Origin: Nymphaea colorata
Lineage: Eukaryota; Streptophyta; Magnoliopsida; Nymphaeales; Nymphaeaceae
Direction of reading: 5' to 3'
DNA: 64,000 nt
Assembly: GCF_008831285.2 (NCBI RefSeq)
Contig: NC_045140.1
Span: 25,872,131 to 25,936,130 of the forward strand
Positions 3,660-45,540 of the stretch are shown here, in pieces. A model generated the notes under the pieces. It was not told the origin of the DNA, searched no databases, and saw only the letters and a program-made list of their open reading frames with translations. The position numbers and the translations under genes were made by a program. The stretch's first letter is position 1, and every line of letters begins with the position of its first letter.

Positions 3660-4230
3660 AGCACCACTCTATTGATGGCGATGGGCAAAAGCTGGTGTGG
3701 GCAACATGAGGGCAATTCCCTACATGAACCCACAAAAAACACTTTTTTTCTCACCTACATGTCATCATGCCATTGTCGGTTTATGCCCAGCAATTTATGT
3801 GGTTAGATCTAACCAGAAATGGGAGATTGTCCAAACCTAACCGTCCTTAAATCTGCGGTTCTGCACTTGTGCTTCAGTAACCGTCATTCTTATTCGCTCT
3901 TGATTTAGTGCTAATGTTAAGGTCGATCATCTGCTCGCCTAGGGAGACTTCCGCTTCACGCTTGCCCTCTTGAGTTGTGCTTACTTACTCATTTCTTGTT
4001 GAACCTTTTCCAAAATGATCAACCCTCAATTTCGAAACAATATTTCTTGCCTTCCTCTGCCTTTGTGTTCCTTTTTCTATTTGTCGCTCTGTATGTTTGC
4101 ATGTCTTTTGTTTTCGTGCATGTGGTTTTCTGTTCTTTTTTATTCATTTATATCTTGAAGATACAAACTTTATCATTCATGTGAGCACCACTGAATGGGC
4201 ACACTTATCACTTACTTGGGCATTAATTGC
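3660..4230 (+). repeat. Orphan promoter/leader block of an HCT-like unit
   Basis: The block runs from GGTGTGGGCAACATGAGGGCAA through CAAACCTAACCGTCCTTAAAT and TGCTCGCCTAGGGAGACTTC to a T-rich stretch with CTCTGCCTTTGTGTTCC. It recurs at about 25890-26960 and 27140-27800. A diverged version lies just upstream of the start codon of copy 2 (7320-7534). The position before copy 2 identifies it as the 5' flank or leader of the + strand genes. The short ORFs inside it (VLCLLTHFLLN-like) are not conserved as proteins. Confidence 0.6.
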
Positions 4231-4364
4231 CTAAATCATTGTGCTACTTGAATTGTTTACAACTGGATGTGGCTTAAAGGTATATACTTCAAATATTTGT
4301 TTGGAATTTAGTAGTGTCGGTTAATAATCTAGGTGAGCTTGCGCACATGTGTTTTGTAAGTAAT

Positions 4365-4860
4365 GGCCCGATGCAACCGAAGATCCCAGAAGTAATGGAA
4401 ATATACATACTAAACGTACTGATAATTAACTGCAAGGATCTTATTGGCATGCCTCAAGGGGTGTAATATAGCTGGTCAGGCAGGCGGGCATGTAAAAGAC
4501 ATGTATCATGTTCGATTCCTATGGTTACTAATTTTCTAGACCATAAAAAAATTGTGATACTCTAATTGATAGGTATCCACCCAAGTCCCGATTCAACCAA
4601 AGACCTCAAAAGCAGTGGAAATATACATACTAAACGTACTGATAATTAACCATAACCATAAGAACCTTACTAAGATGCCTCAAGGTGCATAATGAAGCTG
4701 GTCAGACAGCTGGACATGTAAAAAGCATGTAGCATGTTTGATTGTTGTGGGCATGACTTCTGAACCATAAAAAGAGGAATTATGGTACTTTGATTGATAG
4801 ATATCCATCCAGCCAAGTCCCGATTCGAAGACCCTAGAAGTAGGGGAAATGGGAGAGACC
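4365..4860. repeat. Tandem SINE-like repeat (two units) before HCT relic
   Basis: Two imperfect units of roughly 200 bp each contain TACTGATAATTAACC, GCATGCCTCAAGG and an A-box-like TAGCTGGTCAGG (4469-4480). The first unit also has a B-box-like GTTCGATTCC (4510-4519). The same pair of units sits at 29545-29910, upstream of intact copy 3. The A/B box layout suggests a tRNA-derived SINE head. No A-rich tail or target duplication was established. Confidence 0.4.
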
Positions 4861-20751: not shown

Positions 20752-21912
20752 GCCAGGTCGTGGATCTTGCCGGCACCATGGCGGACAGTCCCCGACGTGA
20801 GATCGCCGGCGATAGCTATCGGTGCCAGGGGAAAGATGACGTTCCCAAAGTACTGCATCTAGATCTCAGGCCGAAGTCATCTGAGGAGATATATAACTTG
20901 ATTTCCTGGTCGGGCTCTAGGCCTCTGGGCACAGTGACGCATCTCCAAACATGGCCAGCTAAAATCTCAAAGGATGGTTCTCTTGCCCTTAAGCAGGATT
21001 GATCAGCGAGAGGGAGAGATTTTACATCATGCCGCGCCAGATCGGACAAATGTCCACAAAGTGCAGGGCACCAAACCCGTCGGTCATGGTATGATGCATG
21101 CCAACACCGAGACCCAATCCACCAAAGTGACCTGCCAAATCAAGAAGATTAATTAAAAACATTCTTACATAAAGCACGCATTATTAAATAAATACGTTTA
21201 AAATGCTAAAAACGGGTCAGTCAAGTAAAACGCCAAAATTACTTATTTTTTAACCTAAAAATATCAAAAATGAAAATCTCTCTCTCTCTCTCTCTCCTTT
21301 TTGAGACAATCCATAATGATCGGATAGGTCTTTTTATAAGCTTTTTTTTTTTAGATTTTTTTATCTTTGGCAACTTGCAGGCTCTTTTCAAAAAAAAAAA
21401 ACACGCTTCTCATGTGACGTTTGTGGCCTACCAACTTTGCCATTATTGAAAGGCCAAGCATGTAATGCATGCATATTGACTGCTTAAGGAAAAATTAATT
21501 AATTTGGACGGTAATTTATCTGAATGAGCAAAAGAGGGTAGGAAGATATATCATCTGTGTAATCAACCGTGGGAATCAGCTGCCTGAGCTCGGCGATGGG
21601 AGAAAAATCTCCTGCTACCCTCCGCCTCTGCCTCAACAGAGAGAACATCATGTTTCATTGCAGTCGATCTGCAATCGACCGTCTGTGGGGAGGCGGAGTC
21701 TTCCGGGGACGGGGTAGAACGGAACGAGATCTCTGCCCGGCGATTCTTTCGTCACTTTGGTGTCGAAGAAGTCGGCACTGCCATTTGCTCTGTAAAAGTA
21801 GACGCTTGAAGCATGAATCCTGATGATCCAGATTTGTGATCCACGGGCCATGCTTCGGAGTCACCCTCGGAGGGAGGAGGACCGTGGTTGAGTTTTTCAG
21901 CGTGATTTTCAT
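20752..21912 (-). pseudogene. Antisense HCT relic D, two-exon pseudogene
   Basis: This is the most complete - strand relic. Exon 1 (21912-21520) begins MKITLKNSTTVLL, shifts frame, continues with SSVYFYRANGSADFFDTKV and VPFYPVPGRLR, then degrades to ELRQLIPTVDYTDDISSYPL. The donor has changed from GT to AT (CAG|ATAAAT). Exon 2 starts after an intact acceptor at 21131. FFK is lost from its first residues, and GLGVGMHHTMTDG keeps HxxxD. A large deletion then leads to FEILAGHVWRCVTVPRGLEP and QEIKLYISSD, followed by a YFGNVIF-like block. The DFGWG end is missing. The conserved stretches are canonical HCT. Confidence 0.9.
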
Positions 21913-22579
21913 TTTTCTGCCTTAATGTAAAGATCCAATGGCATAAATATGGAAAGATCAACAGTTATTTTACTGCTCCTGGTCTCTTTTCTCATCAACG
22001 GTTTCATGGTTCCAAATCCTTGTCAAGAACCTTAATGAGGCCATGATATATATACTTCGTTCACTTTGAACTAGAAACCAAATCTTCGAGTGCTTTCTAT
22101 TTCTGCGAGAAGTTGGGAGCTGTAAAAGGATAGTAAGTCGGACAAAAACTCCGCTCACCATCAGATAGAGACCGGTGCACAAGAACTTAAATGCATGAAT
22201 TAGAGAGGGAGGGAGAAGCATTGTTTACCTTCAACGTATAGATCTGAGGATAAGCTTCTGTGCGAAAGAAGACAAGTGAGAGAGAGGTACTCGTAGTAAA
22301 TGGCAGCCACCACTGCTCTCAGAAAGAGGCGCTGGTATTATTGATGAGGGTTCATTGTTCTTTGGCCCGATTGAAGCTTTCTTCCCACAAGCGAGGGCCG
22401 CTTTCACCCTAAAAAGGAAAGTCGAAAGAAGAACTTTACAAGACATTAATAAAGGTTCATTGTTCTCAGGAAGGAGCATGATTTTTTTTTAAGAGCGAGC
22501 CTTGCAGGTCGAGTTAAGAGGAGCATTTTTGGCCCGGTTTGGAGCTTTCTTCCCCCAGCGAGGGCCGCTTTAACCCTAA
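21913..22579. repeat. Flank with short tandem duplication
   Basis: GGTTCATTGTTCT ... GCTTTCTTCCC ... GCGAGGGCCGCTTT recurs as two imperfect copies (about 22336-22425 and 22448-22579). The second copy is split by the transposon that follows. Comparing the two reveals the empty insertion site. Confidence 0.6.
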
Positions 22580-24306
22580 GGGCCCGTTTGACGGGCAGGA
22601 AATATCCTGTACCACAAGAAAAAAATTTCAAATTTTAGAAAATTTTCGGTTTCATCCAACACGAAAAAATTTTTTTTTGGAGCCGTTAAACTCGTTTCAG
22701 AAAAAATATTTCCGGAAACATGTTTCCACCGCGAGGGGTGGAAACATATTTCCGGGTTTATTTTTCTGCCGGTCAGGGCTCGCGCATCTTCCTCCTACTG
22801 CTGCCTCCTCACCTTTCTCCTGCCGCAGGCCCGCAGAGTCGCCTTCCTCCTGCCTCCCTTCGTCGTCTCTCTCGCCCTCTCACGCTCCTCCTTCCTTCGT
22901 GGTGGGCTTTTGTTGTTCGATTATGAAGAAGAAAGCAGCCAATGTCGATGGCGACGATGGCAAGTAGACCGATGAGAAGATCTTTCGGCGACTGTCAACA
23001 TCTTTCACTCTCAACTCTCTCTCTCTCTCTTTGTAACCATCGGCCATGGCAACCGAGGCTTCTGAATTTTTCTCAAACCCTAAGCCATGGAGGCCGAGAG
23101 TTTTGTTTTTAAGCAAAACCCATGGCCCCCTTCTCTCCTTCCTCTCTCTTTCTAACCTTCATTTCTTCCACAACCCTCTATCCAAACAAGAAAACAACCC
23201 TTTCAAATTATGGATATGTTGGTTTTGGGCGCGTTTTCATTTGACCTCTTTTCCTTCTCTGCGTTGTTAATTTCTCAGGAATGCAGATTGGGACACTCTT
23301 GATGATTTTGCTTGGTAACATTTTTCATTACATGCTCTCTTATACCATATTTGCTCATGGAACTCAGGACGTTCTAATCTCTCCCATTAACAAATTCTCT
23401 CTCATTTTGTTCTGTTTTTTCTCCCTCTCTCTGTGGTTGTGTGGTTTGGCAACAGAGGGTCCCCTGTCACGATGGCAGGAGTAGTCTTGCCAGGGCTTCC
23501 CCCGAGAATCTAAGTCCGACATCCAGCCATGGAGGTCCCTGTTCTTCGCTTGGGAGATGCCTCTGTCATCTTCTTAACACTTTCTCTGTGGTGTGGATGG
23601 ATGTTTTTGTCATCCAGTATGAAAGGAGAGAGGGCACTCAGGCGTGCCTGCAGTGCAGGACTAGATACAAACGTCATAAGGGTAAGTTTCCATTAGTTCG
23701 CCTTTTCTTCAGCTTATATGTCCAGCTGATATGCTGCCTTCTTGAAATAAGTTCCACTGATTTATATGTTATTCTGATCCTCGAAGAAAATGCGTAAGTC
23801 CAGTAAGCAAAGTTAATGACAAAATTCAGTTCCCTTTGCTGCTGGAAGTGCAGAGGAGTAGCCGTGTAGGATGATACAAGGCCCTGTGTGTTTCAGTTTG
23901 CCTGAGAAAAGTAAGAATAGTAGCCAATTGCGGAAGATTGTTTAGAAAGTTTACTTGCATAACCAGAAGAAATAGCCTTCTGTCCTTGTAACAATTCTGG
24001 ATTATTTAAGGGGATGAGGAGGAAGATGATGTTGATGATTTGGAGAATGAGGAGGAAGATGATGTTGAAGGGGAGGAAGATGATGTTGATGATTTGGAGA
24101 ATGAATTTGGTTTTACAAATCTGAAATTCTGGAAATATATTTCTGTACCATCAAACTCAGAAATATAGAATTGAAAATATATTTATGAGTCATCACAGGC
24201 ACACTCAAATTGGAATTGGAAATATTTTTCCTATTCCATTTTTTCATTTCCTACATTTCTAGAAATATATTTTCAAAAATATATTTTCAGGCCATCAAAC
24301 GGCCCC
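22580..24306 (+). mobile_element. PIF/Harbinger-like element carrying cellulose synthase fragments
   Basis: The ends are inverted repeats (GGGCCCGTTTGACGGGCAGG and the reverse complement of CCATCAAACGGCCCC), flanked by a TAA target duplication at 22577-22579 and 24307-24309. These are hallmarks of PIF/Harbinger or Tourist-like DNA transposons. No transposase ORF is present, so it is non-autonomous. The subterminal sequence (AAAAAATATTTCC then ACCGCGAGGGGTGGAAA) matches the element at 28381-29348. The interior is GC-richer than its surroundings, holds pyrimidine-rich CCTTCCTCC tracts, and contains pieces of a host CESA gene (23600-24115). The 1.7-kb length is far more than a simple MITE. Confidence 0.8.
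23600..24115 (+). pseudogene. Captured CESA (cellulose synthase) N-terminal fragment
   Basis: 23618-23681 encodes YERREGTQACLQCRTRYKRH followed by Lys-Gly. This is the end of the RING-type zinc finger found at the N terminus of plant cellulose synthase catalytic subunits, with its CxxC intact, and it is followed by a perfect donor (G|GTAAGT). After about 330 bp and a TTTAAG acceptor, 24011-24115 encodes GDEEEDDVDDLENE, EEDDVEG, EEDDVDDLENEFG, the acidic segment that follows the finger in CESA. It is duplicated inside. The SPRV residues between the two parts and the rest of the 1,000-residue enzyme are missing. Exon-intron order is kept, so genomic DNA rather than cDNA was captured. Confidence 0.8.
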
Positions 24307-24309
24307 TAA

Positions 24310-25227
24310 ATGAAAACTAAAAGAAGAACTTAACTTCACTTTATCAAAAGATATTTATTCAAAACATTTTAGGCAGTTTAAACATTAAAGCGATTGAAAA
24401 AGACCATATAAGAGAGCAAGTTTTTGTTCATGTATGTAGTTGGATGTGAACTTTATTTTTATACTCAAACATTGCATATGAATGCATTTGCATATGAATA
24501 TGCATATGCGTGAAATAACAAATAATTATGAAAGAACAAATAAGTATCAGATATTATTTATGATATAATAAAAGGCATATGAGATAACGAGATAACAAAT
24601 GGATGTATGAGATAATGCTAAACATAAATATGAAATAATGTTTATAAGATAATAAAATATTAATAAGATAACGAGATAACACTATAAACGAAACACAAAA
24701 AATAAAAATGTTTTTTTGCTACTTAAAAGAGTAATTGGTCGTAATGATATACATATAAAGATTGACAAAATTTTACATTTATTAAATCCCCACATCTTCT
24801 TTTTGTGGATTCCTTTATTGTCCCTATAAAAAATTTCATTTTGTATTACACATTGAATTTCATATATAAAGACGTCGTATATCACCAGTTTATGTACCAA
24901 AGGCAAAAGCAGGTGTGGGAAACCCACTCATGCCATCCCCGAAGATATAATCATAGTTACGAATTCGTGAATGAGTAAAGTTTTGGCCAAACCATGGTGA
25001 AGATATTACTTGTCACTTGAAGGGTAGGAGGAGATGTCTTACTAGTCAACTGCAGTGGTGCAGCCACATGTGAGCTGGTGTGTGCATTTGCCCAACAACA
25101 ATCCTTCAAAAAATCCTAATTTATATGTTGATGCCCATAACAAGTTGTTCATTTAAATTAGTGTCCCTCAATTAAAAAATCCCCAGCTTCCGCCAATAGA
25201 ACAAAGTATCCAAAATAATAGAAGGCT
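24310..25227. other. Gene-free AT-rich stretch
   Basis: It contains short imperfect repeats of GCATATGAATATGC and ATGAGATAACGAGATAAC type near 24460-24690. No gene was recognised. Confidence 0.5.
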
Positions 25228-25345
25228 ATGTTCATCTGCCTCAACAAAGAGAAGGCCATGATTGATTCGGTTGATTTTCGATCGGCATTTTTCATGGTGT
25301 TTGGGGACTTCCAGAGACCATACAGAATGGAACAAGTGCTCTATT
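25228..25345 (-). pseudogene. Antisense HCT relic E, short exon 1 fragment
   Basis: On the - strand, AGAGCACTTGTTCCATTCTG reads as RALVPF and continues into a VSGS segment equivalent to MAGRLR. After shifts it gives an IE...N segment and then GLLFVEADE, the exon 1 string GVLFVEADA of the intact genes. Only about 40 codons remain. Confidence 0.6.
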
Positions 25346-27800: not shown

Positions 27801-28380
27801 AGTCATTGGGTACGTCTAGGGATAGGTCACAACATGCTACTTGAGTTGTTTAGAACTGGATGTGGCTTCAAGGTATATAATTCAAATATTTGTTTGGAAT
27901 TTAGAAGGATAGGTTAAATCTATGTCCGTGTGCACACACGTATTTTGTAAGTAAAGTCTATGAGTTACAGATACTCTTTGGGGCACTTGATTACTCCATA
28001 TTTGAAATTCATAGATCTGATAATGTGGCATATTTTTACTTGTGTGGCAAAAGGACCATTGTCAAATCCATTGCTCATCAAACTAAGGATCTAGATCAGA
28101 CCTAAGATCCACAGTTAATATCGTTATTTTACTTTTTGTTATTGATAAAAGGTCAAATTTTAGATTGGAGGGAATATAGTTTAAAATAATTTGTAAGACA
28201 CATAGCCATAGTGTTGTAGAAAAAAATCAACGGAATCAATAAGTAGTTTGTTTGTTAAGTCTCCTGTGCAGTTTATATCAAGAAATTCCCAATTAAACAG
28301 TGAAAAAGTTTGTTATTTTTCTACACAATATCATCCCATTTTATTGATTCTTGTTCGGCGCCGTGGCGCAGCCATCCTTA

Positions 28381-29348
28381 GGGGGTGTTTGATGGGCTGG
28401 AAATCTAATGTAGCTGACGAAAAAATTTTCAAAATTTTAAAATTTTTCCACATTGTCAAACATGGAATTTTTTTTTGTCCGTTAAAAGGTGGAATCTGAA
28501 ATATATTTTCGAAAAAATATTTCCACCGCAAGGGGTGAAAATATTTTTCCAGGTTTTTTTTTACGCCGTTGGGGCTTCTCCTCGCGTTCAGCCTCTCTGC
28601 TTCTCATCTTCCTCCTGCACAACATCGTCTTCCTCACGCCCAGCATCGTCTTCCTCCTGCACAGCATTCTCACCACCAGCTTGATTGGGCATCTCCTCAC
28701 CAGCGCAGCACGAAAGAGGAAGAACGAAGGGGAAAGAGGAAGAAGGAGGAAGAACGAAGGGGAAAGAGGAAGAAAGAGGAAGAGCGAGGGAGGAAGAAGG
28801 GAAGGGAGGAGGAGGAAGAAGGGAAGGGAAGGGAAGGGAAGGGAGGGAGGAGGAGGAAGGGAAGGAGGGAGGAGGAAGAAGGGAGCGAGGGAAGAAGAAG
28901 GAGGAAGAAGGGAACGAAGGGGAAAGGGCATCATCTTTCCTCGGCCTCCCTTCTTCCTCTTTCCATCGTCTTCCTCCTCCTCCCTTTCCTTCTTCCTCCT
29001 CCTCCCTTCCCTTCCCTTCCCTTCTTCCTCCTCTTCTTCCCTCGCTCCCTTCTTCTTCCTCCCTCCTTCCCTTCCTCCTCCTCCCCCACTTCCCTTCCCT
29101 TCCCTTCTTTCTCCTTCGCTCCCTTCTTCCTCCTCCCTCCTTCTCTTCTTCCTCCTTCGCTCCCTTCTTCCTCCTCCCTCCTTCTCTTCTTCCTCCTTCC
29201 AAACGAAGAAATTTTTTTTAAAAAAAATAATTTCTCTATAACAAACAGGTTTTAGAAAAAAGGAATTTTATTTTCAATTCTTCAATTCCAAAAATAAATT
29301 TCTAGAAATTTCTTTCTGTTTTCATTTTTCCACCCATCAAACGGCCCC
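28381..29348. mobile_element. PIF/Harbinger-like fold-back element
   Basis: Terminal inverted repeats (GGGGGTGTTTGATGGGCTGG at the left; CCATCAAACGGCCCC at the right) are bordered by a TTA duplication at 28378-28380 and 29349-29351. The 968-bp element shares its subterminal sequence with the CESA-carrying element. Its core is a purine-only arm (about 28710-28934, GGAAGAAGG units) followed by a pyrimidine arm (about 28940-29206) that is largely its reverse complement. The long ORFs through it on both strands are low-complexity and not genes. Confidence 0.85.
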
Positions 29349-29544
29349 TTAATGAAAGGGCAAACTGATCATTTTTACATGGAGAAGACTTTGTTACATT
29401 GAAAAGTAGACATTGTTTGCTCATTTGAATATAGTATAACAGTGCTTCTCTTACTATTATTATTATCTCCAAAAGCATGCCAATTTTTTGGTTTTTGCTC
29501 AATTCTATCCTTAAACAATTTCATGAAGGACTCTTATGCAAAAT

Positions 29545-38791: not shown

Positions 38792-39180
38792 CCTGTCCCT
38801 TGAGGACGAAGAAACGAAGCGGATGGATCTCGCCGCACCGCGGTGGAGACACGAAATCCCCTTCAAACTTTTTCCCGGGGAACAGCGGTCGAACAGGACA
38901 GAGCCGACTAAAAGAGGTGTCAAACCGACCAATTCAGATCAGGGATCCACATTCAACTCGAACGGGTTTTACCAAATTCGAGTTAACCCCACCCCGTGTG
39001 CCGTCAACGCTTTCTTCGCGGTTCACCAATCACCAGTCTCCGCAGGACGCAAGCAAAACGAAAACGAATCGGATCCTATGAATGAATCCAGCTTTTCACC
39101 AAGAACCATTACAGATCCAAAACCTACGTCGAAGCATTATCGGAAAATCTGTGAAGCTTTTTATGTAGGGTATACACTAT
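38792..39180 (-). promoter_or_regulatory. 5' UTR and promoter region of the RCI2-type gene
   Basis: It is GC-richer than its surroundings and lies directly upstream of the - strand start codon. No TATA box could be assigned with confidence. A Harbinger-type MITE begins at its far end (39183). Confidence 0.4.
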
Positions 39181-39182
39181 TA

Positions 39183-39629
39183 AAAGGGTATTTGATGATG
39201 TTGGAATTGTAGAATTTTATAATTTATTTTTTTATTTTTTTATGAAATGAGAATTTCATTATCAAACAAAAAAGTTTGTTTCCGGACTCATTATTGAATC
39301 AAAATTTTTTGGAATTGTGAACCTACCTTAGGGCAATTTAAAAAATTTTCATTTTTCCTTAAGGACCATTTGCTCACCTTGAATTTTGATTCTAAAATTA
39401 AAATTCTAGAAACAATTATCAAACTTTCCATAAAACATGTCATGATAGTTTTAATTCATTAATCTGGAATTTTAATTCTTTGATTATCAAACACGGTGTT
39501 TTAAATTTTGGAATTAAAATTCTAGACTATCAAACACAATGGGATACTAGAACTAGAATTTTCATTTAAATTTCAGTTTGAAGTAGAAGTTTATTTCAGG
39601 AATCAAAATTCAAGGCTGACAAATGCCCC
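39183..39629. mobile_element. MITE-like element, TTA target duplication
   Basis: AAAGGGTATTTGATGATG at the left pairs with CTGACAAATGCCCC at the right. TTA flanks both ends (39180-39182, 39630-39632). Internal TTAAGGACCATTTG (about 39358) and ATCAAACACAATGGG (about 39532) hint at a second element nested inside. The GGAATTTTAATTC strings are typical of this MITE type. Confidence 0.55.
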
Positions 39630-39846
39630 TTACTTACAATTTAAAAAAACATTTGCTTCTTTCTGAATTTTCTTCTTGTCAGCCTCATTTCATGGGCAAC
39701 TGCCAAGGAGAAACTTCCACTTCAATCGTATCATGTGAATTCATTTCTTGACTTAATCTTCCTTTTCACCGATAGCTGTTAAGGAGAAACTTCTAATCTA
39801 TGGCAAAACTTCACTGAAGTTGGGTAGCCTCTTTCTAGGCTCTTTA

Positions 39847-40055
39847 GGGGTGTTTGATGGTTTGGAATTTTGATTCAAAATGAAAATTCCAGGATCTTAA
39901 TTCATCCTCCTTAAACTGGAACGGAATCATAATTTCATATTGCAGTTTCTTAATTCCAAAAACAAAATACGTTGTTTGTTCAATAATTCTAATTTCTTAA
40001 AAAGTTTACCATTTTGATTCTAAAATTCCATGATTCTAAGTATATCAAACATCCC
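39847..40055. mobile_element. Tourist-like MITE
   Basis: This 209-bp element has GGGGTGTTTGATGGTTTGGA at the left and TATATCAAACATCCC at the right. It is preceded by TTA and followed by TGA, which may be a decayed target duplication. The GTTTGAT core matches the ends of the larger Harbinger-like elements at 22580 and 28381. Confidence 0.65.
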
Positions 40056-41402: not shown

Positions 41403-42568
41403 ACTTTGAAAGCATAAAGCCTTAGGAATTTTACGTTTTCCGTGAATAAGTTTCTAAAATTAATAAAGAAAAAAAGTTCACACAATTATTTTAGATACTA
41501 ATATAAAAGCTAACTACTTAGGATATAAACAATCATGCATTTTGCTACGTAAGGATGTTGATTCAAATTAATGAACTTAAATTTTGCCTTTATTGCAGGT
41601 AGTTTTAGTGTTTTTTGTAATATACCAAGTTAAATTAGTAAGTAATAACCTAAGGTTAATTGAAAGAAGAGTTTTTTCTTATCAATGACACAAAATTGGT
41701 GTGATTATCAGCATTCTTAAAATCTCACAAAATTGCTGAACGCGGAAGGTCATCCTAAACTCAAAATATCTTATGCAAAAGATACATCTTTCTAATCTTA
41801 CTTGCCCGTAAAATTGTAGGTTAGGTAAAAGAAGCAAGAAAATAAAACCTCCTCCTGGCTAGCTAGTTAACCGTCGATATCTGATATATATCTAAAAATT
41901 ATTATACTTCATTTATTGTAATAAGCAACAAAGTTATAGTTGGTATGCACCAAGTAAATATCACTACGGTCCTGGCCGAGCTAGAAATTTAGAAATAACT
42001 CTGAATTACATGAATCCAATATTTGTGGCAAAATATCCAAATAATAGAAATTAAGCTCAAAACATTGTGGCTCCCAAATTGAAGGACATCTATCTCTCTA
42101 CAACTTTTTACCTTCTTTTCAGATGACATAACATCGCATGTCATCTCTATTGAAACTTTTGCTGGTGTTCATAGTAGAAACTCGAGGGTTAACAATACTT
42201 GATTGTTTCCGGGATCGCCAGTGTTATAAATATCAGTTTTCGTCGTGTATCAAAAATCTGAACAAGTACTATCGGCCTATACATATATCAGCCACAACAA
42301 ATTAAGTAACAAATAAAAATATTCGTTACTGATTTTGGTAGTATATTAGATTACGCTTCGAATCAGCCGATAGACACCCATTTATCTAATATAGAGGTTT
42401 GTATTTGCTGATACTTTAAAATGGCGTTTGATAATAATAACATTATGCTTTTGGAATACATGCATCAGGAACATCATGTTCATGCTTTTAGAGAACGAGT
42501 TGTGGTCATGTCCGATAATTTCAATTGTTGGATTTAAGAATAACATACTTAATTTTAAGATGTTCCTT
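41403..42568. other. Gene-free stretch
   Basis: AT-rich DNA in which I recognise no gene or element. Confidence 0.4.
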
Positions 42569-42680
42569 AAGGGGCCGTTTGGCAACAGTAACAAGGATAA
42601 TGAAATAATGTAACACATTGTTTCATGAAGAGGCGGATTCAGAACTATAATAGTGTGTTACTGTTGTCCAAACAGCCTTT
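42569..42680. mobile_element. Short MITE with 25-bp inverted ends
   Basis: AAGGGGCCGTTTGGCAACAG plus TAACA at the left is the near-exact inverse of TGTTACTGTTGTCCAAACAG plus CCTTT at the right. The whole element is about 110 bp. TTAA-type sequence flanks it (CCTTAA and TTTTAA), in line with a Tourist/Harbinger insertion site. Confidence 0.7.
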
Positions 42681-45540
42681 TAAAAAAGAAGTGTTGTTCT
42701 TTATCAAACACCCTCTTTTCGCCTCCTTATCGCTTATATTTTTTGCCGATCAAAAGTGCAGCAGCCGATGCATGCAGGCCAATTGAGCACCAACATCAAT
42801 AACAGTAATGGGAACCACGCTGGCTAGCTACTTGCTGGGTGGAGATTGCTTTCGCAAGGTTTATATGGGATTTAGTGCTTGGTAGATAGGAGGGTGGCAC
42901 CATTGATTTACTCTAATCAACTGCAACTTGCATATTATTATTTGTAGGAAAGGAAATACAACAATAATACTGTAAAAAGGCCGGGGGAAGAAGAAACCCA
43001 AATATATGAAAATGTACACACTAATTCGTGTCTTTATCAGCAAAATGGCATGATTTTGGACAGGTAAGGTAGAACAAGAACTAGTGGACCCATGTACTCT
43101 CTAAAGTCTTAACCACAAGTGGTATCTCATCTGGACTAAGACTTATTGGTGAAGATGAAGGTCCTCTTCATGATAGAAAGTTGAAAGAAAAATAAAAACA
43201 ACAATAAAAAGGGGGTAGATATTTTCATCTTCTAATACCAGTTCACACCTTTTTCTTTTTCTTTTTTTCCTCTCACTGTTCATTACGATAGAACAAATGG
43301 CTCTCATGCCTAAGCTGGGTGATCTGGAAAATCAAAGTTACTAACAATATATATATATAATGGACCTATGTCATGTCTTTTTGAGATATATTATGCTTTC
43401 AGATGTTTTCAATAGATGGTCAATCAAGCGCTGAAGGTTGAATTTAAATATATTTAAGTTGAAGAAGGTCAAGAGTAGTGAGGGAGGTTTCCCATTGCTT
43501 GGCAGAAGGCCGAAACCTCCATCCAACCTCTCACATCATCATGGTATTCCTGTTTTCGGTACTTCGTGGTGCCGCCCCTGCTGCACTTCAATCTAATCGT
43601 CAATAACCCTCCCTCCCTCTCTTTTCTTTTTGCGGCTATAAGAGTTGACGCTCTGGAAGTTCAAAACAGTGACTGGTGGCCTATCAGCCCCTACTCAAAC
43701 CCTTGCGCCAACCCCCTTAGGGATAAAGAAGGTCAAGAGTTCAAGATCTTACCAATAAAAGCTAAAAAAATGGAGATATGCTCGCCTACATAAACCAAGC
43801 TAAAGCGAAGTTAAATGCACGCAAGGTCATCATAGTCTGTTGATATCTGAACGATATTGAAGACTCCGAGTGAATACCAAATTGACTTGGTCCCCACTTT
43901 GTATTTCTAGGCTCAGTGGAGTTGCTGGTGGTAATCTTGTTGGCGCGGTCATGTGATGAAAGTGTGACTTCTTGACCTGACATTAAGATCACTTGGTCCG
44001 TCGCATTAATGTCTCCCTGTAAATATTGTCCAAATTTTATACTTCCACGGAGCGTTTGAATGCCACCGTCGTCAGGGGCTATTTGGGATCCTGGGATTTA
44101 AAATCTTAGGAATTGTTTAGACCCCTTGTTCGAAAGATGCGTGAACTACACTGTTCCGTGACTACTCGATGTACAAAATGAAAACAAAGAATCATATATT
44201 ATGCATGTGTTTCTTGCTCAACATCGTGCTAATGCAACTTGGAAACTCCAGGGCCAATCCCATAACTTGATGCTTATGTACAGTTTCATGTTTCATCAAT
44301 ATGACAATACGATCTTTCTAATTTTTTAACAAAAATGTTTATGTCATCTAATGAACTACGCAATGGCCCACGCACTTCAATTAAATCCCTTTGTTTATAA
44401 ATTGTTTGACCTACGTGTTTGCACATTACTATATAAAATGTCCCTCAAAAATATGGTGAGTACCTTTCAATTAAGGCCGTCACCTTTTATCCTTAGACAC
44501 TAGTTCAATGAAACTAGTTAATATTTCATATTCCAACCTACCCAGTACTTGATGCATGCATTTAACAGTGGTCCGACATATAATAAGTTTTGAGTGAATG
44601 GGAAAGCCCCACCATCCGGTGTTGAAGGTTAAAACCTATATGCAACCCTTGGTCCCTTTTGCAGTGCTTGGCTTGGGGGTACTGCTGCCACCAACCACAA
44701 TCCAACTTACAATCCAACTTGCTTGTTGGTGGCTTTCCTTTCGCTGCACATTCAGTTCACAGTTCAAAGATTCGAAACGAAAATTGGCTGCCTACTAACC
44801 TTATATAGTTTGTTGCAATAACTTTTAAAGCATCAAGCCTCTAATATTGTTAGGTACAAGTGGGGAGGGTGTCTTTAAGCGCCCTTCTTTATTACCTGAC
44901 TCGACGGACTTTGTCGTTTGGTTCCCGTCTAGATCGGACCAACTTTCCCCCATGATCATGAGTTTAGTTAGATCCACTTGCGCACGAAAACGAGGTCTGG
45001 ACATGCACGACCGGTCTGCCCCATAAGCTGTTTATCATCTGAGTGCATCCCAATAGATCAAGTGGGTTTGAGCAAAGAGTCGTATTAGACCGCAACTTGG
45101 CTTGATCGACCTACACTCGTGTAAATGGTCGCATGAGCAAGCCTGACTTTTTTAACCAAGGCCCTCAAATGACCTTAAACTCTACGGGTTAGATCTAGAG
45201 TAAGGAGAAGGGGAGAGGACTTTGGCCCTTCTTCGGGGAACTTCAGCTCACTCGAAGACCAAGGTTACATGAAGTAAGGAAAATCATGGTTATCCCAAAG
45301 TAGAGATGTAAGCAGTGCAGACTCAGATCAACCGATTCAAATCAAAACGCGTGTCAAACGAATTCAATTTGATGGCTGATTCAAAAGTGCCATGTGACGT
45401 TTGGCGTGTATCGACACGAGCCAGCATGCATCAACTCTCATAACGAGTTCTAATTTATAAAACGGAAATATATAATGGCCGAAACTGCTTACCCAGGCTC
45501 ACACCGATCGATTGCTTGTATCGTCACAAAGCCATCATCT
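42681..45540. other. Gene-free stretch upstream of the PP2C gene
   Basis: No convincing coding region or transposon was found. The last few hundred bases before 45540 should contain the PP2C promoter. A short GA run sits at 45552-45565. Confidence 0.4.

Follow-up and report, generated by a model that had tools for sequence, protein, structure and literature searches.

A PIF/Harbinger-like transposon that appears to have captured cellulose synthase genomic DNA

The locus and the ends of the element

The window, i.e., the whole stretch of 64,000 nucleotides that was analysed, contains an array of BAHD acyltransferase genes and gene fragments, and the Pfam Transferase family was matched by 9 of its 110 open reading frames (ORFs) of at least 82 aa. 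Judging from these genes, the window appears to be plant nuclear DNA. The array was observed over positions 1–33000, where long diverged direct repeats lie between the genes and fragments. Between two BAHD remnants of the array (21533–21917 and 25199–25258) there is an element of 1,727 bp (22580–24306). Its terminal inverted repeats (TIRs), GGGCCCGTTTGA on the left (22580–22606, forward strand) and GGGGCCGTTTGA on the right (24280–24306, reverse strand, written reversed), agree at 11 of the outer 12 bases and at 21 of the outer 27 bases; they are imperfect, and the word "clean" that the initial annotation applied to them was not retained. The TAA target-site duplication that it had reported is present, with TAA abutting the element on both sides (22577–22579 and 24307–24309).

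Pairs with the same TAA or TTA on both sides, TIRs matching at 11 or more of 12 bases and a spacing of 0.2–3 kb were counted over the whole window, and three were found, namely the element and two other places. Because these two places are equally good, the TIRs and the target duplication alone are weak evidence, and the case rests, beyond them, on a second family member (28381–29348) and on a paralogous empty site.

PIF/Harbinger elements have TIRs with a G-rich consensus and are mobilised by the PIF transposase together with its ORF1 partner; hAT elements have target duplications of 8 bp and Mutator elements of 9 bp. A TTA or TAA target duplication is given as a hallmark of PIF in the accessible text of two earlier papers (PMC8903248, PMC2528002). 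Both elements of the window have 3-bp TWA duplications (TAA at 22580–24306, TTA at the second member) and G-rich TIRs (matching at 11/12 and 10/12 bases, respectively), and on the 3-bp duplications at both of them hAT and Mutator were set aside as the class of the element. No match to a transposase family was found among the element's 45 ORFs (25 aa or longer) or among 110 ORFs of 82 aa or more from the window. The flanks were covered for about 2 kb each way; of their 56 ORFs with a length of 40 aa or more, three matched the BAHD Transferase family and none a CESA family, so the situation in which CESA DNA extends beyond both TIRs was not encountered. Since a CESA fragment lies inside, none was found in the flank ORFs and no transposase match was found inside, the element corresponds to the Pack-TYPE definition, under which the ends of a non-autonomous TIR element enclose a fragment of a host gene. 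Very probably, 22580–24306 is a PIF/Harbinger-like DNA transposon that is non-autonomous, captured CESA genomic DNA and was inserted as a unit; such an element would today be termed a Pack-PIF.

The cellulose synthase cargo

The CESA zinc-finger end read in the element at first was recovered, together with the splice donor proposed to follow it. On the forward strand, YERREGTQACLQCRTRYKRHK is encoded at 23618–23680 and, with the first base of a Gly codon, makes up a captured exon end of 64 bp (23618–23681); the presumed end of the exon at 23681 is followed at once by the donor sequence GTAAGT at 23682. The open frame was matched above the cut-off by the Pfam profile zf-UDP, the RING finger of CESA (E-value = 3.9e-8, 33.7 bits vs. 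a cut-off of 27.1), over profile positions 41–66 of 78 only, and all five sequences listed up to E 10 in a PDB search with the finger piece were cellulose synthases (best score 27.9 bits). The captured piece has Leu where the PDB-matched CESAs have Pro. A zf-UDP match was found in one of the 45 element ORFs (at least 25 aa) and in one of the 110 window ORFs (at least 82 aa); by the latter count, no donor gene was seen in the window.

Similarity to CESA stops at the donor and resumes downstream, and the spacer of about 320 bp in between, which starts with GTAAGT (23682–24003, forward strand, right limit approximate), is presumably a captured CESA intron. Because this intron seems to have been kept, the captured DNA would be genomic DNA and not cDNA. 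The position of the CESA intron is not given in the literature searched, including the accessible part of PMC4836682, and a degenerate CESA pattern was found 0 times in viral_contigs.

After the presumed intron comes a putative piece of the next exon (24004–24114, forward strand), which corresponds to the CESA acidic segment as an in-frame tandem duplication: positions 24010–24114 read GDEEEDDVDDLENE, followed in frame by a second copy that ends in DVDDLENEFGF. In aligned CESAs, SPRVEG and then an acidic run come after the finger peptide; in the element, the second exon piece seems to have decayed in its first codons, which give ATTTAAGGGGAT in place of the expected VEGD.

It is unlikely that only the finger piece comes from CESA and that the acidic segment is mere low-complexity, purine-rich DNA. 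The acidic piece is indeed a tandem repeat, which on its own had no PDB match up to E 10 and in Pfam matched only CheZ (E-value = 1.3), and 39 bp of the purine/pyrimidine-rich interior of the second member match it at 82% on the opposite strand, a match that we took for low complexity. However, when the second acidic copy was attached after the finger piece, the best PDB match to a CESA reached 40.4 bits (E-value = 1.3e-9), while the best PDB match was 29.1 bits for the reversed order and 27.9 bits for the finger alone, and DVDDLENEF agrees with CESA in both its spacing from the finger and its order. The gain on joining differed from chain to chain (13.9 bits for 8vhz, 13.4 for 7d5k, 8.9 for 8vi0, 2.5 for 1weo and 1.4 for 8vht). 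The acidic segment also lies on the same strand as the finger piece, after the donor site, and by tblastn the acidic peptide matched nothing in the window but the 22580–24306 element. Against Pfam zf-UDP, the whole joined peptide scored 28.3 bits, below the 33.7 bits of the unjoined ORF. The acidic segment that the initial annotation placed downstream of the finger is retained on the score in CESA order; order and strand agree with CESA, and the strength of the assignment comes from the finger piece.

No other cargo with a convincing Pfam match was found in 22790–23600 (45 ORFs of at least 25 aa, next best E-value = 0.054), and none with a convincing NCBIfam match (best E-value = 0.013, prokaryote library). 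Two peptides from this part also had no Pfam match; both were of mixed reading frames, so this was no clean test. At 23280–23315 a short, exon-like open stretch, NADWDTLDDFAW, lies between AG and GTAACA; it is too short for a PDB search and is possibly a second captured gene scrap.

Related elements and the paralogous empty site

The second family member (28381–29348, forward strand, TTA duplications at 28378–28380 and 29349–29351) lies 4,074 bp downstream of the CESA-carrying element in the same orientation, and it is outside the three TIR pairs counted in the window because its own TIRs match at 10 of 12 bases. A family-specific left end (22580–22770, forward strand) is common to both elements: their left 190 bp or so agree at 73% over 188 bp (blastn, E-value = 5e-24), with an alignment score of 170 against a control-window maximum of 70 (0 of 2520 control windows as good). 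On the right, the two elements share their outer 15 bases exactly, and alignment of their right-hand 50 bases scored 44, a value reached by 4 of 12748 windows. When the four element ends were scanned over the window, the best-scoring places for three of them were the other three ends; the exception was the left end of the second member, for which position 39841 tied for first and 39513 tied with the left end of the first element. Neither CESA peptide (finger or acidic) was found in the second member by tblastn, and it is the one related element seen in the window that has no CESA protein match.

The interior of the second member holds a purine/pyrimidine-rich repeat block of about 0.6 kb with large imperfect inverted arms (28823–28921 and 29009–29107, 87% complementary). 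Paralogy around this member breaks off at 27954 and resumes at 29535; the paralogous stretch 3901–4700 was considered as its empty site and dropped, the alignment with the joined flanks being poor (score 40). Several related end-like motifs were observed at 39180–39880 (GGGGTGTTTGATGG at 39847 and CAAATGCCCCTTA at 39620), possibly relatives of both elements. At 42567–42683 there is a MITE-looking repeat of about 110 bp, one end of which reads TTAAGGGGCCGTTTGGC while the opposite end carries an imperfect inverse of it; we take this repeat to be Tourist-like.

For the CESA-carrying element, a tandem copy of the left flank (22528–22579) was found at 22361–22412 (forward strand, 88.7% over 53 bp). 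This copy runs on without an element, and with a single TAA, into sequence like the right flank after 24309, and thus represents a paralogous empty site. The continuation aligned with the right flank at a score of 34, for which 0 of 2000 shuffles (best shuffle 33, a narrow margin) and 1 of 3632 control windows were as good. The continuation is rich in A and could be aligned only with a gap of 2 bases at the junction, so the empty site with its one TAA gives moderate support, at the level of sequence, to insertion as a unit.

An old CESA pseudogene at the locus, flanked by chance by two independent transposon insertions, is a very unlikely origin for this arrangement. It draws on the two other places in the window where TIRs and target duplications are paired as well as here; however, the tandem copy of the left flank crosses the insertion point with a single TAA, which argues against TIRs from two insertions, the flank ORFs are free of CESA matches (0/56), and the two ends belong to one family that has a two-ended second member.

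Origin and comparison with known systems

The capture of CESA DNA inside a PIF/Harbinger-like element, as proposed initially, is well supported by the cargo inside the element, the lack of CESA matches among the flank ORFs and the empty site. An ancestral element would have acquired roughly 0.5 kb of CESA genomic DNA, perhaps through aberrant repair or because neighbouring elements were mobilised together, and PIF transposase acting in trans would later have moved the whole unit, at TAA, into the BAHD acyltransferase array. The CESA piece may since have drifted as a pseudogene: its acidic codons would have undergone slippage, the second exon piece would have decayed where it begins, and Pro would have given way to Leu. 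Fusion of neighbouring elements has been proposed as a capture route (PMC8903248), and an as yet unknown route has been proposed for the capture of unlinked genes (PMC13317346); both proposals are compatible with the element. Two internal TIR-like motifs, at 24129 (score 26 with the right end as query, reached by 20 of 15990 windows) and near 22761 (score 22 with the left end as query, reached by 39 of 15990 windows), were considered as a sign of neighbour fusion and found too weak to be more than a lead; because of this weakness, no choice was made between fusion and the unlinked-gene route.

The left subterminal region contains a hairpin-forming stretch (22698–22768, forward strand; −37.6 kcal/mol when folded as RNA, z = −7.4, equalled by 0 of 200 shuffles), which is the transposon's own left-end sequence and not CESA; the matching hairpin in the second member is weaker (z = −2.0, 9 of 200 shuffles as good). 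The CESA part (23618–24114) does not stand out from shuffled sequence in its folding (z = −0.58, equalled by 26 of 100 shuffles), and the folding of 24125–24200 is ordinary (z = −0.52). According to a review (PMC13317346), the sequences captured by maize Helitrons, Pack-MULEs and Sireviruses are reported to serve as reservoirs of siRNAs. Such reports together with the strong hairpin would suit a role as a functional chimeric gene or as a supplier of small RNAs tuning CESA genes, but this is very improbable for an element in which the CESA exon DNA is short, the CESA part shows no particular folding and the strong hairpin is transposon sequence. Just as improbable is a multi-copy Pack-PIF family, with the element as one member, in which the CESA cargo is transcribed and gives rise to small RNAs acting back on CESA genes, or in which transcripts from nearby receive a spliced exon by way of the intact donor site.

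The element is a further case of known gene capture, and a good but ordinary example. It adds one bounded case in which a PIF/Harbinger-like element took up CESA DNA and has, close by, both a paralogous empty site and a relative that showed no CESA protein match, and it leaves the knowledge of gene capture unchanged. The remark in the initial annotation that capture is less often reported for PIF/Harbinger elements needs to be qualified, since host-gene capture by PIF elements has already been described: maize Pack-PIF elements by Gisby and Catoni, 2022 (PMC8903248), and host exons and introns in PIF elements of grapevine in 2008 (PMC2528002). The literature searched on capture, as far as its text was accessible, yielded no PIF element with CESA cargo, which is no proof that none is in print.

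Among the described systems, Zm-Pack-PIF cluster 18 of maize also consists of PIF elements with mostly TTA/TAA duplications and shared ends, only part of the family having host-gene fragments inside, and the neighbour lying 4 kb off in the same orientation is reminiscent of the local same-orientation pairs of maize Pack-PIFs (PMC8903248). The cargo of cluster 18, however, is 163 and 58 bp of other genes instead of CESA, and the cluster comprises 124 elements in two groups, compared with at least two members here (PMC8903248). Pifvine-3 of grapevine likewise represents PIF elements carrying host exons and introns, but it is a transposase-coding family, whereas no transposase was found in the present element (PMC2528002). 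The accessible text of the same grapevine study also reports a Mutator family in which both exon and intron sequence derives from a putative cellulose synthase (PMC2528002); that carrier and the present element are both cut-and-paste elements with cellulose synthase exon and intron DNA, the carrier in grapevine being a Mutator element and the one described here being PIF-like.
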